A DNA stretch of 13,211 bases from Desulfuromonas sp. SDB (GTDB lineage Bacteria > SDB-A): positions 1 to 13,211 of the forward strand of contig LKUE01000380.1 of assembly GCA_001412365.1 (NCBI GenBank), written 5' to 3'. Numbering within the stretch: position 1 is the first letter of the stretch; each line of letters opens with the position of its first letter. The notes beneath the pieces were generated by a model, which worked only from the letters and a program-made list of their open reading frames with translations, was not told the DNA's origin and ran no database searches. The position numbers and the translations under genes are program-made. This document shows positions 3,448 to 13,211 of this stretch, in pieces.

Positions 3448-3876
3448 TTAATTGATAAATACAAATTTTCGATCCAGGAAATACTTACAGGTGTATCCAA
3501 TGGTTAAACCGATAAATGCTCCCAGATACTGTGATCCCTGAAAATGAAAACAGTAGTTGAAGATTAATTCCACCGACCAGAATATCACTGTAGTGAAAAT
3601 TCCCATAACAGTGTATAAGATGAATTTTGCCAGGTCATGATGGATAGATTTTGTTTTGTAGTAAAATATAAATTTTTTATCTAAAATGTATTTCACTACC
3701 AAGCCAGCTAAAGTTCCAACTCCCATGGCTAGGTAAATGGTGTAATTTAATGAAATTACAGTAAACACAATTTTTTGCAGAGCGATGTTGGTTAAAGTTG
3801 CAATTAATGCAAAAACTGTATATTTAAAAGTTAATTTGGCAAATGGGTTTGATTTCATCAAAATATGTTTTTTCAT
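3448..3876 (-). CDS. GtrA-family four-helix membrane protein
   Basis: The protein has 142 residues, the usual length for the family. It has four predicted hydrophobic helices at about 17-39, 47-65, 86-106 and 117-132. The internal repeat typical of GtrA-like proteins is plain: Y-I-L-D-K-K-F-I-F after helix 2 and Y-F-L-D-R-K-F-V-F at the C-terminus. GtrA and relatives are thought to help move polyprenyl-linked sugars across the inner membrane or to assist membrane glycosyltransferases in decorating surface polysaccharides. No glycosyltransferase gene is seen in this window. The start lies 8 bp after the stop of the ferredoxin-nitroreductase gene on the same strand and has only a weak ribosome site, so translational coupling is likely. 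A second Met at residue 7 is an alternative start. The family call is firm; the substrate is unknown. Confidence 0.85.
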   Translation of the reverse strand: MKKHILMKSNPFAKLTFKYTVFALIATLTNIALQKIVFTVISLNYTIYLAMGVGTLAGLVVKYILDKKFIFYYKTKSIHHDLAKFILYTVMGIFTTVIFWSVELIFNYCFHFQGSQYLGAFIGLTIGYTCKYFLDRKFVFIN

Positions 3877-3884
3877 CCATTTAA

Positions 3885-4736
3885 TTAAATATAATTAACC
3901 TTGATTTTCTTTCGGGGAGGTATGCGGGAATAATTCAGCTGAGGATAACCCAGGGTAAATACCGCGCAAATCCTGTAATTTTTGGGTATGCCTAATATCT
4001 TTTTAATTTTTTTGCTTTTGGCTATTGCCTGCATGACAAAACCCATCCAACAGCTGCCCAAACCCAGCAGATGAGCAGCATGTATTCCGTTGGTGGCTGC
4101 TATGATGGGATCAATTAAACTCATTTCACCCATTTCCGGATAGTAAATTAAAATCACCAGGGGAGCATAGAAAAAAATTACATCTTTGCCCTTTTCATAA
4201 TCCGAGATCATTGATTTAATACCCACAGAAGTGGAGGGATCATTTAAAAGTTCAAATAATATGGAGGGAATGAACAGTTTTATGAAGTATCTCAGTTTGA
4301 TCAAAACCAGAAATTTCTTCATTGCCTTAATAGTGAAATCACTGAGAGCTAGTTGTACTTTCCTGTCTTTTATTACTATGTATTTGCAGCCCTGAAGATT
4401 ATGTCCGCTTGCTGAATATCTCATCGCTTCCAAAATAAATTCAATTTTTTCAGGAGACACTTGTTCTTCTGAATAATTCCGGATAGATCTTTGGTTTAGC
4501 AGGTTTAGTAATTGATGGGGAATGTTTTTAGAATACTCTCGATAGGAAGGGGATAAATCATATTCCACTGCCTGAGCAGGGCATATAGCCAGACAATGCC
4601 CGCATTTTATGCACCAGTGGTTAGGATCTTGAAAATTTATGCAATCATTTTGGAAACTGAATAAATTTGCAGGACAGGCGCTAAGGCATAACTTACACTT
4701 TGTGCACTTGTTTAGATTAACTTCGATTATTTTCAT
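3885..4736 (-). CDS. ferredoxin-nitroreductase fusion (2[4Fe-4S] domain plus FMN nitroreductase domain)
   Basis: The protein has 283 residues. The ATG at 4736 has GGAGA just upstream. Residues 1-60 form a bacterial ferredoxin domain with two cluster motifs: C11-x2-C14-x2-C17-x3-C21-P and C42-x2-C45-x2-C48-x3-C52-P. Residues 78-283 form a nitroreductase domain: N-Q-R83-S-I-R86-N-Y is the FMN-phosphate-binding start, S-A-S-G-H-N-L-Q (108-115) follows, then the G-L-G-S-C-W segment and a closing L-G-Y-P. Such fusions are common in anaerobes and pass electrons from reduced ferredoxin or an internal chain to FMN for reduction of an unknown, often nitro- or quinone-like, substrate. The middle of the nitroreductase domain (about 125-180) looks extended and hydrophobic (F-L-V-L-I-K-L-R-Y-F-I-K-L-F-I-P), which might favour membrane association. 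It appears to be the first gene of a two-gene unit with the GtrA-family gene. Confidence 0.9.
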   Translation of the reverse strand: MKIIEVNLNKCTKCKLCLSACPANLFSFQNDCINFQDPNHWCIKCGHCLAICPAQAVEYDLSPSYREYSKNIPHQLLNLLNQRSIRNYSEEQVSPEKIEFILEAMRYSASGHNLQGCKYIVIKDRKVQLALSDFTIKAMKKFLVLIKLRYFIKLFIPSILFELLNDPSTSVGIKSMISDYEKGKDVIFFYAPLVILIYYPEMGEMSLIDPIIAATNGIHAAHLLGLGSCWMGFVMQAIAKSKKIKKILGIPKNYRICAVFTLGYPQLNYSRIPPRKKIKVNYI

Positions 4737-6871: not shown

Positions 6872-7933
6872 ATGAAGATATTACATACCTCAGATCTGCA
6901 CTTAACCGATAAAAAAAATTATCGCTGGGAAGCTTTAACCCAGCTGTTGAAAATTGCTGATGAGCAGCAGGTTGAATTAATGGTGATTTCCGGTGATTTG
7001 TTCGACAGCAAAAAAGCAGGAGAACATTTAAGAACTGAAATCCGGCATCTTTTTTCACAGAATAGTTACACCATTGTTCTAATTCCCGGAAATCATGACA
7101 GTGAGGTTTTCAACCGGGGTTTTTATCTAGGGGATAATGTAATCACCATTTCTGATTACCGGAAACCCCTGCATTTAAAACAAGTTGATATATGGGGTTT
7201 TCCTTACCGTAAGATGGAAAAACAGGAAGTACAAAGACAAATTATAGAAATAGAAGATATTATCAATCGGCAAAAAAGAAACATACTTCTTTTTCATGGA
7301 GAATTGTTGGATACCATGTTCTGTTCGGAGGATTACGGGGATGAAGTATCTTACCGGTATATGCCGGTGAAATTGGATTATTTTCAGAAAAGCAGTTTTA
7401 ATTATATTTTGGCAGGTCATTATCATACTAAATTTGATGTCCGGACCTTCAATGAAAATGGTTATTTTGTTTATCCCGGTTCCCCGGTTTCAGTTACCCG
7501 GAAAGAAATTGGCAGAAGAAAAGTGAATTTATTTAGTTTAGGAAATCCCCCTGAAGAATTCGATTTACAAACATTTCACTATATTCAGGTTGAAGTGAGT
7601 TTAAATCCTCTCAGTGATATTAATCCCTACTCAATAATTGCGGACCAGTTAAATAAAATTCAGGGAGAACAAAACATTATCCTCAATATAAAGGGATATT
7701 ACCGAAGTTCTGAATTTAAATTAACTGAGCAACAGCTAATTGAAAAAATTAAAACAGAATTCAGTAAAAAACTGGATTCAATCAACTCCTATTTTAAAGA
7801 TGTTAAATTTATCTTAGATGATGATTTGTACATTAAATTCCAAACTGAATTGGAAAAACAGGATATCTCACCAGAAAACAAACAGAAGTTAACTGATATT
7901 TTCATAGAAACCATGTGCAGAGTAGATATATGA
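6872..7933 (+). CDS. Mre11/SbcD/YhaO-like metallophosphoesterase, probable DNA nuclease subunit
   Basis: The protein has 353 residues and shows all metallophosphoesterase metal motifs in order: D8-x-H10, G41-D42-L-F-D45, G73-N74-H75-D76, F-H142-G and G182-H183-Y-H185. Y-P-G-S-P (201-205), then V-T-R-K-E-I-G-R-R-K, matches the capping strand of Mre11/SbcD nucleases. With an intact two-metal (usually Mn) site it should act as an exo/endonuclease on DNA ends or hairpins, powered and gated by the ATPase encoded next door. The C-terminal 100 residues, beyond the catalytic domain, would form the cap and the ATPase-binding part. The gene begins one base after the acetyltransferase stop and ends by ATGA overlap with the ATPase gene, so the two subunits are probably made in a fixed ratio. 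It lacks an obvious ribosome site of its own. No signal peptide or membrane helix is seen. Confidence 0.88.
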   Translation: MKILHTSDLHLTDKKNYRWEALTQLLKIADEQQVELMVISGDLFDSKKAGEHLRTEIRHLFSQNSYTIVLIPGNHDSEVFNRGFYLGDNVITISDYRKPLHLKQVDIWGFPYRKMEKQEVQRQIIEIEDIINRQKRNILLFHGELLDTMFCSEDYGDEVSYRYMPVKLDYFQKSSFNYILAGHYHTKFDVRTFNENGYFVYPGSPVSVTRKEIGRRKVNLFSLGNPPEEFDLQTFHYIQVEVSLNPLSDINPYSIIADQLNKIQGEQNIILNIKGYYRSSEFKLTEQQLIEKIKTEFSKKLDSINSYFKDVKFILDDDLYIKFQTELEKQDISPENKQKLTDIFIETMCRVDI

Positions 7934-10263
7934 AAATAAATGAATTTCAAATATTTAAATACGGTCCCATTAAAAATTTTTCAGTATCAAAATTAAAAGG
8001 ATTTAATTTATTTTGGGGCAAGAATGAAACTGGTAAATCTCTGATAGTTGAAGCTTTGGTAAAATTTTTAGTGAAAAAGAGCGGAATATTCAATTTGATT
8101 GACAGGGTTGATCATCAGCCGGAAGGATATTTAAACCTCATCCTAGATGATCGCAAAGAGCTGAAGATACCTGAGCAGAAAGATAAATTCCGTCAATTGG
8201 CGGGTATTGAAGATAATGAGTACAGGGATTTTTTCATCATCAGGAATAGTGATTTAGAATTGGGCAGGCAAAAAGATATTGATCAGAAAAAAGAAGAACA
8301 AAAAGAGATTGTACTGGGTGTAACTGACAAGTTAACCGGTCTGAAATCTGAAAAAATTAATAGCTTATGCAATCAGCTAAGGGAACAGGGAAGACTTACT
8401 CCGGGGGGAGGTTTAAGAAATGTCAGCGGAGAAAAACTTAAAGAGAGGTACCAACAAGCTGTAGAATTATTACCCAAGATATCTGATATATTTAATAAAA
8501 TCAAATGCCAAGGTTTAGATGATATTGACCAGCAGTGGATGCAGTCCAATATAAGATTTAAAGATATAAAGGGCAAGTTACAGATTATCAGGGACTTGAA
8601 AAAAAGGCTGCAGTTTAATAAGGGAAATGAATCACTAACCGCATTGAAAGAAAATTTGCTGAAACTGGAAGAATTGAAATTAATTAGCGAGGATAAAGAA
8701 GAAAAATGGTTGAAAATGAATTATAAGTTGGAGAGCATGCTGCAGCAAAAGGAAGATCTCCAGAAACAAAAACAGCAGTTAGATGATGAATTATCTGAGG
8801 TGAAAAATAAATTCAGCTCAGCTGAAGATAAATTAAATAAATTAACACTTCTGAAAAAAAAATTAGATCAAGAATTGAAATTTGATATTTTACATTATCA
8901 AGATCAACTAAAGGACTTCTCCGCCAAACATTCTCTATTTGCAGCATTGATTTTGATAGGTTCAAGCTCATTAATTTTACTGCTAATTTCCATGTTGGGA
9001 AGTATATTAACCCGGCAGTTAATATTTTACATTTTGATTATGATACTATTGCCGATTTGTTTATTTATTTCAATAGTGGTTGTGAACAGAAAATTTAAAC
9101 AATCGAAATTAAATAAAAAATTAAGTGATATAATCATTCAGGCTAATCGGTTAGATATAAAAGGAGACGACCTGGATCAGGTGAACTCTCAAATCGAACA
9201 ATTTGAACAGCAATTTTCTCAAATAAATAATGAATACCAGAAATTAGAAGGACTTGAGGAAATTAAACAAAAAGAACTGAATCAGCTCACTCAGGGGAAA
9301 TTACCTGAGTTGGAAGAAAAAATATGTGATTGTAAAACTAATATTCAACAAATCAAGACCACTTCAAAAGTGGATAATTTTGATGAGTACACCCGATTAG
9401 TTCAACAAAAACATAATTGTGAGGAACTAATTGAAAAAAATATTTCTCTTTTGGACAGCATTTTTCAAAAACCTTTTAATAATCTGGAGGAAAATATTAA
9501 ATACTGGGAAACTGAAATAGTTAAACTAGAGTCTTACTCAGAAATTTATCCAGAACAGAGTTATTCCCGAAATGAAGAAATTTCCTGTGAAAATCAAGTT
9601 ATTCAGCAGCAGCAGAATATTGATGAGTTGAAAAAGATGATAAATGAATTAGATGGTGATTTTAGACAAATAGAAACTGAGGTTAATCAAATTTTACAAC
9701 CTTCATCTTTGGTGTGTAATTCCATCGAAGATTTAAAAGCGATTGAACAGCAAGTTAAAAATTTCATTGAAGACATTGATCAACGCAGAAAAGACACCTT
9801 GTTGATAATTAATATTTTAGAAAAAATTGACAAACAGGAAAGAGAGAAAATATCCAGGTTGTTTGAAGATGAAAGCAAAGTATTTAAATATTTCAGTGAG
9901 ATCACTAATGAGCTTTACACCGGATTATCCTTTAATCCTGATAGCATGGAGTTACAGATATACCAAGGAGATGAGGTTTTCTCTCCACAGCAGCTTTCCG
10001 GAGGAGCTTATGATCAGTTGTATTTTTCCATCAGACTGGCTTTCGGTGAATTGCTGATGAAATCAAAACCGGGATTTTTTATATTAGATGATCCATTCAT
10101 TAAGTCTGACCAGGAAAGATTGAACCGCCAATTTGACTTATTACTTAAAATAGTGGAAATGGGCTGGCAGGTACTTTATTTTACCTGTAAATCGGAAATA
10201 AGACAGATGGTTGAATCCAGGTTTGATCAGAATAAATGCAGATCAGTGGAGATAATAAATTGA
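7930..10263 (+). CDS. Rad50/SbcC/YhaN-like coiled-coil ATPase with a membrane hairpin at its apex
   Basis: The protein has 777 residues from ATG 7930, which overlaps the upstream TGA as ATGA. A GTG at 7915 is an alternative start, but homology-like sequence (M-K-I-N-E-F) begins at the ATG. Walker A is G30-K-N-E-T-G-K-S37. The ABC signature is L689-S-G-G-A and Walker B is F716-F-I-L-D720-D721-P. The second Asp sits where many ABC ATPases have the catalytic Glu; L-D-D-P is usual in the YhaN/RecF branch. Long charged coiled coils fill about 200-332 and 386-640. Between them are two adjoining hydrophobic helices, about 336-359 and 364-385, linked by only four residues (L-T-R-Q). There is no CxxC zinc hook. 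It should pair with the Mre11-like phosphoesterase as a DNA-processing ATPase anchored in the inner membrane. As I recall, Bacillus YhaO/YhaN is a similar pair. At 777 residues it is shorter than SbcC (about 1,000 or more). Confidence 0.88.
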   Translation: MKINEFQIFKYGPIKNFSVSKLKGFNLFWGKNETGKSLIVEALVKFLVKKSGIFNLIDRVDHQPEGYLNLILDDRKELKIPEQKDKFRQLAGIEDNEYRDFFIIRNSDLELGRQKDIDQKKEEQKEIVLGVTDKLTGLKSEKINSLCNQLREQGRLTPGGGLRNVSGEKLKERYQQAVELLPKISDIFNKIKCQGLDDIDQQWMQSNIRFKDIKGKLQIIRDLKKRLQFNKGNESLTALKENLLKLEELKLISEDKEEKWLKMNYKLESMLQQKEDLQKQKQQLDDELSEVKNKFSSAEDKLNKLTLLKKKLDQELKFDILHYQDQLKDFSAKHSLFAALILIGSSSLILLLISMLGSILTRQLIFYILIMILLPICLFISIVVVNRKFKQSKLNKKLSDIIIQANRLDIKGDDLDQVNSQIEQFEQQFSQINNEYQKLEGLEEIKQKELNQLTQGKLPELEEKICDCKTNIQQIKTTSKVDNFDEYTRLVQQKHNCEELIEKNISLLDSIFQKPFNNLEENIKYWETEIVKLESYSEIYPEQSYSRNEEISCENQVIQQQQNIDELKKMINELDGDFRQIETEVNQILQPSSLVCNSIEDLKAIEQQVKNFIEDIDQRRKDTLLIINILEKIDKQEREKISRLFEDESKVFKYFSEITNELYTGLSFNPDSMELQIYQGDEVFSPQQLSGGAYDQLYFSIRLAFGELLMKSKPGFFILDDPFIKSDQERLNRQFDLLLKIVEMGWQVLYFTCKSEIRQMVESRFDQNKCRSVEIIN

Positions 10264-10896: not shown

Positions 10897-12177
10897 TTAA
10901 ACCTTACTGATTTCTCCTGCTTTTTGTAAACCAATTTTAGTAGTTATTGGTCCGATTAACTCGAAAATGATGCAGGTTGCAGTTATAGTGGTAAGCACAG
11001 TGGCGCCGATAAAATCTCCCCGGCTGCCCAAATCCATTTGATAGAACTGCCTTTTTACAATCAAAGCCAAACCAATGGCTACTCCTGCCTGGGATAAGAT
11101 CCCCAATCCTAAATATTTTTTCAACTTTGGCTCTGCTCTCCCCCATACTGCTCCAAGGGTAGCTCCTCCCATTAAACCAGCAGTTCGGGACAAGATATAT
11201 ATCAGTCCCAATAATCCCAGGGATGGAAGTGCGGAAAGGTGTAAATTTGCCCCGGCTAAACCGAAGAATAAAATAAAAAGTAAGGGCATGACATCTGATA
11301 AGTTCTCTCCAATTGAAGAAACCCTGGAATGGTGCAGATTATTTACAATTATTATACCAATGACCATATTGGTTAAGATTAATGATATATCCAATAGCTT
11401 GCAAACTCCGGTCACCGACAAGATTAATCCGAAAGTCAAAATAAATACATCCCGTTGAGATTTTAATTTGGTGACCAGAAAATTGAATATATAACCGCCT
11501 ATTACTCCGATCACTATGCTGAAAACTATTTCCAGCAAAGGTTTAAACAACATAGCTAAAATGTTCACCGATGAACCATTGGTGCTTATTATAATATTTT
11601 TTGCTATTGCTGAAGCAAATCCGAATATTATTATCCCCAGCCCGTCATCAAATCCCACTACTGCGTAAAGGGCGTTGGTTAAAGTTCCTTTCGCTCTGTA
11701 TTCCTTAATTACTGCTACTGTCCCCGCAGGAGCACTGGCGGGGGCGATAGAACCGAAAATCAAGGCTAAGGGAAGGGCGGTAGTGCTTTCCATTCCTGAA
11801 ATAATTTCAAAAATGTAAATAACCCCAGTGACCAATATGAAGGCAAAAATGGATTCAGAAAATATTATGACCACAATACTTTTACCCAGCTTTCTCAATG
11901 TACTTAATTTCAATTCCATCCCAATACTCAAAGCGACAAATCCCAGGGCAATTTCAGTAATGAAGGAAAGGTCAATTTGCACTTGCTCATTTAAAAGATC
12001 AAAACCAGATGGTCCTAAAAGCAGTCCCAGAAGCATAAAGCCAATAATCGAAGGAAGTCTGAATAATTTCATGCTTTTCCCCACATAAAAACCTATGCAG
12101 GTAATCAAGCCGACAATAAGCAAGTAAGGTATATTGACAGAATGAAAAAAAGTCTGGATTGAATGAAGATAATGCAT
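10897..12177 (-). CDS. cation:proton antiporter, CPA2 type (Na+/H+ exchanger family)
   Basis: The protein has 426 residues and is almost entirely hydrophobic, with roughly 12-13 membrane helices. The early segment L-P-S-I-I-G-F-M-L-L-G-L-L-L-G-P-S-G-F (41-59) is the classic start of the Na+/H+ exchanger domain. G142-S-I-A-P-A-S-A-P-A-G is the discontinuous-helix region. V174-G-F-D177-D178-G holds the paired aspartates that mark CPA2-type, typically electrogenic, antiporters. It probably exchanges Na+ or K+ for H+ at the inner membrane. Unlike Kef proteins it ends right after the membrane domain (I-S-K-V) with no RCK/TrkA-N domain. AAGGA seven bases upstream supports the ATG at 12177. The gene lies 10 bp after the EIIA-PII-like gene, hence the same operon. 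It converges with the lipoprotein gene across a 10-bp gap. Confidence 0.88.
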   Translation of the reverse strand: MHYLHSIQTFFHSVNIPYLLIVGLITCIGFYVGKSMKLFRLPSIIGFMLLGLLLGPSGFDLLNEQVQIDLSFITEIALGFVALSIGMELKLSTLRKLGKSIVVIIFSESIFAFILVTGVIYIFEIISGMESTTALPLALIFGSIAPASAPAGTVAVIKEYRAKGTLTNALYAVVGFDDGLGIIIFGFASAIAKNIIISTNGSSVNILAMLFKPLLEIVFSIVIGVIGGYIFNFLVTKLKSQRDVFILTFGLILSVTGVCKLLDISLILTNMVIGIIIVNNLHHSRVSSIGENLSDVMPLLFILFFGLAGANLHLSALPSLGLLGLIYILSRTAGLMGGATLGAVWGRAEPKLKKYLGLGILSQAGVAIGLALIVKRQFYQMDLGSRGDFIGATVLTTITATCIIFELIGPITTKIGLQKAGEISKV

Positions 12178-12187
12178 AATAAATTCC

Positions 12188-13000
12188 TTAAAAATCGAGT
12201 TTTCCTTGTGAATAAAATAGTTCCTGGGCAGTAATTAAAACCCCTGCTTTGCTTTCGATGTCTTCAACAATTGTATTTATTCCTCTAATCACATTGTTAG
12301 CCAGATCTTTATCCACAATAACTTGAATCACCCTGCTGAAAAGATTTTTATCCTCTACCCAGAATGTTGAAAAAAGAGGGAGGGAGTGCAAATAATGAGC
12401 AGCATTGTAAGTTTCAGTAATTGAAATGGACCCCGATGAAATTTCCGACAAAAATTGCAAGATGTCATGAAAATAATCTTCTGTTTGGATGAAGATGTGA
12501 ACCATGACTTGAGGTTTAGAGGATACCTCCAGCGATTTAAAGCTTACATGTTCATTCACGATTTCAATTAATCTATCTGCAGTTCTTGCTTTTAAAATTT
12601 CATTAATTTTTTCAGATGAGCGGGTAATTCTGGAGATGGATGACAGTATTTGAATATGGTTGTTTCTTTTGTGGGGAGGAGCAATAATAAAAAAGAATAT
12701 TTTAGACTTCTTGCCGTCCATGGAATCAAAATCCACACCATGGTGATTGATCAATATTCCCACAATTATTTTTGAACAATCATCCAGAATGCAGTGAGGG
12801 ATAGCAATACCGTTGGTGAAACCGGTAGAACCAATTTCTTCTCTTTTTAACAAGGATTGATATATTGTTTCTTTTTCGATATTTTCCAACTCCCCGCTTT
12901 TTTTGGCTAATTCAGCAATATCCTGGAGAGTTTGTTTTTTGTCTGCAGAAACATTTTTTATATCAATACATTGTGGATATAAATTTGAAGATAAAGGCAT
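12188..13000 (-). CDS. PTS EIIA-like (EIIA-2/PtsN type) domain fused to a PII-like domain
   Basis: The protein has 270 residues. AGGAG before ATG 13000 gives a clear start. Residues 1-150 form a fructose/PtsN-type EIIA domain: R-E-E-I-G-S-T-G, then G64-I-A-I-P-H69-C, in which H69 is the expected phosphorylated His. F-F-F-I-I-A-P-P and N-H-I-Q-I-L-S-S-I-S-R follow. Residues 163-270 have a beta-alpha-beta/beta-alpha-beta pattern: V-M-V-H-I-F-I-Q, the D-I-L-Q-F-L-S-E-I helix, S-I-S-I-T-E-T-Y, then R-V-I-Q-V-I-V-D, N-V-I-R-G-I and G-V-L-I-T-A-Q-E-L. This suggests a PII/CutA-like ferredoxin fold with a short T-loop. No EIIB, EIIC, HPr or EI gene is seen in the window, so the role is more likely regulatory than sugar transport. 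The neighbouring antiporter is the likely target. Confidence 0.82.
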   Translation of the reverse strand: MPLSSNLYPQCIDIKNVSADKKQTLQDIAELAKKSGELENIEKETIYQSLLKREEIGSTGFTNGIAIPHCILDDCSKIIVGILINHHGVDFDSMDGKKSKIFFFIIAPPHKRNNHIQILSSISRITRSSEKINEILKARTADRLIEIVNEHVSFKSLEVSSKPQVMVHIFIQTEDYFHDILQFLSEISSGSISITETYNAAHYLHSLPLFSTFWVEDKNLFSRVIQVIVDKDLANNVIRGINTIVEDIESKAGVLITAQELFYSQGKLDF

Positions 13001-13011
13001 CTTTGCTCCTT

Positions 13012-13211
13012 TTAAATATTTTTAATGAATTTCTGACGGTATTCTTGTTCTATCAGCAAGGTTAAAATTTCGTCGAAATTATTAACTTGCCTGAGTTTAT
13101 CTGAAAATTCTTTATCTCTGAAAACTGATGAAATTTTAGAAATTACCTGGAGGTGGATAATCTCATTATTAGTGTGAACTAATGTAAAAAAATAAGTTAA
13201 TTTGTTATCCA
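13012..13211 (-). CDS. PTS EIIA-like protein, C-terminal part (incomplete at the window edge)
   Basis: An open frame of 65 codons enters from the right edge and stops at TAA 13012-13014, 11 bp before the EIIA-PII-like gene. Its start lies outside the window. The sequence Y-F-F-T-L-V-H-T-N-N-E-I-I-H-L-Q-V-I-S-K-I-S, then F-R-D-K-E-F-S-D-K-L and F-D-E-I-L-T-L-L, matches the end of an EIIA-2 domain: the strand after the active-site region, the H-L-x-x-I/L helix, a short helix and the final D/E-E-I-L-x-L-L helix. It closely parallels residues 101-149 of the next gene. The active-site His would be off the edge. It seems to be a separate EIIA-like protein at or near the head of the antiporter operon. 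Confidence 0.75.
   Translation of the reverse strand, partial: DNKLTYFFTLVHTNNEIIHLQVISKISSVFRDKEFSDKLRQVNNFDEILTLLIEQEYRQKFIKNI

Follow-up and report, generated by a model that had tools for sequence, protein, structure and literature searches.

The contig LKUE01000380.1 of Desulfuromonas sp. SDB (GenBank assembly GCA_001412365.1), analysed here over its whole 13,211 nucleotides and referred to as the window, encodes a protein in which an enzyme IIA (EIIA) domain of the phosphotransferase system (PTS) is followed by a PII-like domain, and the gene for this fusion lies directly ahead of one for a cation/proton antiporter (CPA). The linkage of EIIA–PII proteins to antiporters is real and is conserved across phyla. 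With moderate confidence, we lean towards a model in which the fusion directly controls the antiporter, through phosphorylation of His69 and through its PII half, in a three-gene operon. The individual parts belong to known kinds, and our search suggests that the EIIA–PII combination tied to antiporters is undescribed: no description was found in the open-access literature, which is weak evidence, as preprints and most subscription papers lay outside the search. The features concerned are the following.

13012–13209, minus strand: terminal (3′) part of an EIIA gene that is truncated at the contig end (PF00359 positions 92–142).
12188–13000, minus strand: EIIA–PII fusion protein, 270 amino acids (open reading frame list, Pfam, alignment and predicted model).
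12551–12976, minus strand: EIIA-2 domain of the fusion, residues 9–150 (PF00359, E 3.4e-28), with the putative active-site His69 at 12794–12796 and a second conserved histidine, His115.
12191–12538, minus strand: PII-like domain of the fusion, about residues 155–270 (AlphaFold2, VIA-align and the profile match of its relatives), with a shortened T-loop containing PLFxxFW.
10897–12177, minus strand: CPA-type cation/proton antiporter, 426 amino acids (PF00999, 97.9 bits; profile against PDB).

Read from the contig end inward, the minus strand thus carries the truncated EIIA gene, the fusion and the antiporter, separated by gaps of only 11 and 10 bases, which bears out the close-packed unit that a preliminary description, made from the letters alone, had reported. 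The sequence AAGGAG occurs in the 11-base gap between the upstream frame and the ATG of the fusion.

The N-terminal half of the fusion scores 98.9 bits against PF00359, well above the curated cut-off of 27. In agreement with the preliminary description, which had pointed to an EIIA-2 domain with its histidine, His69 lies in an AIPH motif and is invariant across 35 aligned rows, while His115 is nearly invariant in the same alignment of fusion relatives. The fusion does not reach the cut-off of the PtsN equivalog TIGR01419 (90.9 vs 138.7 bits) and, judged by these profiles, its EIIA half is an EIIA-2 protein and not PtsN proper.

The C-terminal half has, according to structure prediction, the PII fold. 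The AlphaFold2 model built from a 34-domain alignment (predicted local distance difference test score, 82.1) shows the ferredoxin-like element order b-a-b-b-a-b, and its top Foldseek matches are PII proteins. In VIA-align, all 50 listed matches belong to the PII superfamily or are PII-like, with top Z scores of 9.8–11.0 over 73–97 residues. An ACT-like domain or a second EIIA, two outcomes that the preliminary description had named as examples contrary to its PII-like assignment, are ruled out by these matches. A PDB sequence search with the PII-domain profile gave no significant match, and the PII identity was decided by fold comparison. The ligand is not inferable from that comparison, as structures of SbtB, CPII, PstA and GlnK match equally well (tied in VIA-align at Z of about 10–11). 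In the full-length model, a low-confidence linker at residues 153–160 connects two folded domains.

The antiporter matches PF00999 over residues 31–415 with an E value of 7e-28 (cut-off, 26.2 bits). Its profile finds NapA-type (5bz2, 4bwz) and archaeal Na+/H+ antiporters as best matches in PDB, and phmmer with the antiporter sequence alone found nothing there. The pair Asp177-Asp178 is invariant in an alignment of 10 antiporters; it may be the counterpart of the Asp-Asp pair in the ion-binding helix of NapA. By Pfam, PF00999 is the sole domain of the protein, with neither an RCK nor any other C-terminal domain. The absence of RCK noted in the preliminary description is therefore correct; the idea that regulation in trans must replace it is not sustained, because the nearest solved relatives, NapA-type and archaeal antiporters, have to our knowledge no RCK domain, which makes its absence uninformative.

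The gene upstream of the fusion is incomplete, since the contig ends at 13,211 (the window is the entire contig C380 of a 3.14-Mb genome assembled in 433 contigs). Its 5′ part is very probably found at the end of contig C25, where an open frame encodes an HTH_17 helix-turn-helix (HTH) domain together with an EIIA domain that breaks off after two thirds of its length. The last 20 bases of C25 and the first 20 of the locus, in minus-strand reading, are identical at 19 positions and the frame continues across them, so that we infer, rather than read directly, a C25–C380 junction and a joined HTH–EIIA regulator of about 230 amino acids. Another contig, C382, was tried as the missing 5′ part and rejected (best overlap, 14/22 vs 19/20 for C25). 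The putative joined protein is 33% identical to the HTH–EIIA of locus L072 and 27% identical to that of L134, and L134 has the identical order HTH–EIIA, EIIA–PII, antiporter (L134 and the deposited spirochaete locus L073 share one genome). The operon is taken to comprise three genes because of the in-frame C25 overlap, the HTH_17 domain and the gene order of L134. The second EIIA-like gene of the preliminary description is thus confirmed in its EIIA part, although what it encodes is very probably an HTH–EIIA regulator instead of a plain EIIA, with its HTH_17 domain lying on C25, beyond the window.

The link recurs in other genomes. A first scan for the PII domain, with one genome per species, yielded 35 loci which, with organism names as deposited, belong to Spirochaetota, Kiritimatiellota, Verrucomicrobiota, Lentisphaerota, Planctomycetota, Fibrobacterota, Cloacimonadota, WOR-3 and UBP14. 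The PII domain follows an EIIA domain in the same frame at 34 of them (the remaining one, L089, is truncated where its contig begins), and an antiporter lies directly upstream at 32, so that the link seen in the window holds among its relatives and across phyla. By chance, an antiporter would be expected at roughly 1–2% of 7.5-kb loci, given the 5 antiporters in the 3.14 Mb of the window genome. A wider search covered 386 genomes and found the PII domain in 57, from which 40 loci were inspected; these were the higher-scoring hits of a profile derived from fusions, a choice that favours fusion-like loci. In this sample, an EIIA domain is fused or lies nearby on the same strand at 31 loci, and an ion transporter is present at 28 (20 CPA antiporters, four with Mrp antiporter subunits and four with CLC proteins, one of the latter, at L200, being a weak CLC-like match at a distance of about 2.5 kb). 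The same models gave no matches on 800 kb of arbitrary control DNA from the window genome and the genomes of the related search. The two domains are encoded by separate neighbouring genes at L064, L187, L191, L201, L202 and L206, and at L068 the EIIA is fused straight to the antiporter.

Other arrangements were also observed. Stand-alone PII-like genes adjoin the Mrp (Mnh) subunit genes MnhE, MnhG and MnhB at L172, L175, L182, L184, L132 and L133, mostly together with an EIIA gene, while EIIA and PII-like genes lie near genes of the CLC chloride-channel family at L176, L177 and L174, with CBS domains in the first two. In two genomes, and without EIIA, a PII-like gene is directly 5′ of a gene for an MlaE-type lipid permease (L189, 3377–4569; L190, 3797–4997), and at L196 (2405–4105) a 567-amino-acid open frame has, ahead of the EIIA–PII part, about 300 residues that match no Pfam family. 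Weaker stand-alone PII-like proteins were found near other genes at L178, L180, L185, L189, L190 and L195. Such copies show that the PII-like domain family extends beyond a role with antiporters.

Within this family, the window represents a well-supported subtype with the fusion gene placed before the antiporter. In a tree of 86 PII domains, calculated from a short alignment and with a long branch for the window, the group of the window has a support of 100/100 and contains every locus with the fusion before the antiporter. The antiporters independently agree with this tree and form a matching set: that of the window shares 54–57% identity with the antiporters of L131, L134 and L135 and 30–33% with canonical ones. 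The window genome also appears to have a paralogue of the canonical order, antiporter followed by EIIA–PII, split over contigs C382 and C170, a joining based on complementary domain coverage alone, as the contig ends share no overlap. Contig C383 carries a third type; over 119 residues, its C-terminal half is 28% identical to that of L137, itself a PII match.

Statements on the whole window genome are derived from family searches. These located adjacent genes for HPr and EI on contig C391 and no PTS_EIIC (PF02378), other permease families not having been searched, which agrees with the earlier remark that no PTS sugar transport genes are seen in the window. There are twelve EIIA-2 matches, some of which are halves of one gene on separate contigs. 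Three of them lie in frames of about 610–620 amino acids (C159, L057; C194, L058; C412, L056), where the EIIA-2 domain is C-terminal to a part that, by eye, resembles amino-acid permeases. All five PF00999 antiporters adjoin an EIIA gene, in tandem on C380, C382, C383 and C64 and divergently on C412, beside one of these permease–EIIA genes.

In the model that we favour, an EI–HPr relay would phosphorylate the EIIA half of the fusion at His69, while the PII half would sense a small molecule or, at least, form a PII-type oligomer. The PLFxxFW of its PII-type T-loop would then touch the cytoplasmic face of the antiporter, and both halves together would switch or throttle it. Additionally, the upstream HTH–EIIA would probably couple the PTS signal to transcription of the operon. 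The switching of the antiporter is proposed by analogy with the silencing of YcgO by unphosphorylated PtsN and with the PII-type T-loops that act on SbtA or AmtB, and all the steps from phosphorylation onward are to be read as inferences.

Several observations weigh against direct control. PII proteins are trimeric and NapA-type antiporters dimeric, and a simple plug, similar to that of GlnK on AmtB, does not fit because of this symmetry mismatch. PtsN contacts YcgO through a C-terminal region, which the window antiporter lacks. Furthermore, there are fusions without an adjacent transporter in the DNA read (L077, L079, L196 and L208), among which L077 and L079 are the two real exceptions in the first scan, with canonical fusions beside a gene that, by eye, is an SppA-like peptidase. 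The preliminary description had named fusions unlinked to antiporters as evidence that would count against it; only a minority is of this kind (the four above, and L200 with its weak CLC-like match only), and the objection mostly fails. Finally, the PII copy of the window has NAA in place of the GxG at the base of the T-loop and lacks the TG/B-loop motif. With both motifs lost, this domain may not bind nucleotide; the PII-type ligand signal proposed in the preliminary description is not supported at the window copy, where residues typical of PII nucleotide sites have been lost.

The same residues bear on an alternative that we consider unlikely, in which the PII half of the window senses nothing and is a remodelled oligomerisation or docking platform, with the EIIA half alone signalling to the antiporter. 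Most canonical relatives have both GMG and TG (HMMER places the GMG of the family on the GFG that GlnK has at the base of its T-loop, in an alignment that is not significant alone), whereas in the group of the window GMGxYIS is lost, TG is mostly lost, and the T-loop of the window copy is shorter. Consistent with remodelling, the window domain itself has no Pfam match, whereas 28 of the 34 members of the family give a weak match to P-II (PF00543; up to E 1; best, 2.4e-5). However, this group has conserved positions of its own (QxE, P...W, Asn and Y..G), which argue against simple decay and would allow for another ligand.

Considerably less probable is that control is transcriptional, with the HTH–EIIA switching the operon and the fusion acting on this regulator, perhaps as its partner or as a sink for phosphoryl groups, and not on the antiporter. 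The HTH_17 and EIIA domains on C25 would suit such a scheme, and HTH–EIIA genes also adjoin the units of L134 and L072; nevertheless, most loci consist of antiporter and fusion only, and a second EIIA on the same strand is restricted to a few (L072, L134, L135 and the window). Mere co-expression, where EIIA–PII would regulate something else under a shared physiology such as ion or energy stress, is very improbable: linked genes need not interact, and some fusions lie beside the peptidase-like gene (L077, L079) or are followed by a gene with a BadF-type ATPase domain (L200, L208), but the link persists across phyla, gene orders, fused or split forms and unrelated families of ion transporters.

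Beyond direct control in the window, we tentatively propose, at slightly less than even chances, a widespread module of EIIA and PII-like domains, fused or encoded by neighbours, that would jointly control CPA antiporters, Mrp antiporters and CLC proteins, thereby adjusting cytoplasmic pH and Na+/K+ to the state of the PTS and to a small-molecule signal. This module would be an ion-homeostasis counterpart of GlnK–AmtB, and the window a divergent branch of it, in which the regulator gene comes first and the sensor is remodelled. PTS phosphorylation reports energy and carbon state, whereas PII reports nucleotides and metabolites, both being known regulators of transport, from separate systems; that they occur fused, and tied to antiporters in many phyla, points to a general connection of central metabolism with ion or pH balance. 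A possible function would also follow for EIIA proteins in genomes without a detected PTS sugar permease.

Elsewhere in the window, the plus strand carries at 6872–10263 a gene for an SbcD-like phosphoesterase and, after it, one for an SbcC/YhaN-like AAA ATPase whose coiled coil contains, midway along, a hydrophobic, membrane-like segment. The minus strand has, at 3448–4736, a fusion of a 4Fe-4S ferredoxin domain with a domain of the nitroreductase family; the next gene encodes a GtrA-like membrane protein. Rfam and tandem-repeat scans of the window gave nothing relevant.

Among the closest known systems is PtsN (EIIA-Ntr) of Escherichia coli, whose unphosphorylated form binds and inhibits the K+/H+ antiporter YcgO (CvrA) via the C-terminal region of YcgO (PMC11808508; reviewed in PMC13104625). 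There, as proposed here, a cation/proton antiporter is under the control in trans of an EIIA-2 family protein, the phosphorylation of whose histidine decides the outcome, and the PTS is a regulator and not a sugar importer. By contrast, PtsN has no PII domain and the window fusion falls below its equivalog cut-off, and the docking region of YcgO is RCK/CorC-like, without counterpart in the window antiporter. Moreover, ptsN and ycgO are not known to form a paired unit of the fusion-plus-antiporter kind. NapA-type Na+/H+ antiporters resemble the window antiporter as its nearest solved structures by profile and in that they are not known to carry an RCK domain; we know of no PTS or PII control of them. 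In LacS, PTS phosphorylation of an EIIA-like domain is likewise tied to a secondary transporter (PMC10710835), although this is a lactose transporter with a fused domain of the EIIA-Glc type and no PII part. SbtB–SbtA and GlnK–AmtB (PMC10117731) share with the window a PII fold that is encoded near, or acts on, a membrane transporter, and SbtB is among the best structural matches of the window domain. In those systems, however, a stand-alone PII protein acts on a trimeric bicarbonate or ammonium transporter, whereas in the window the PII domain, which is devoid of the motif usual at the T-loop base, forms one protein with EIIA and has an antiporter as its partner gene.
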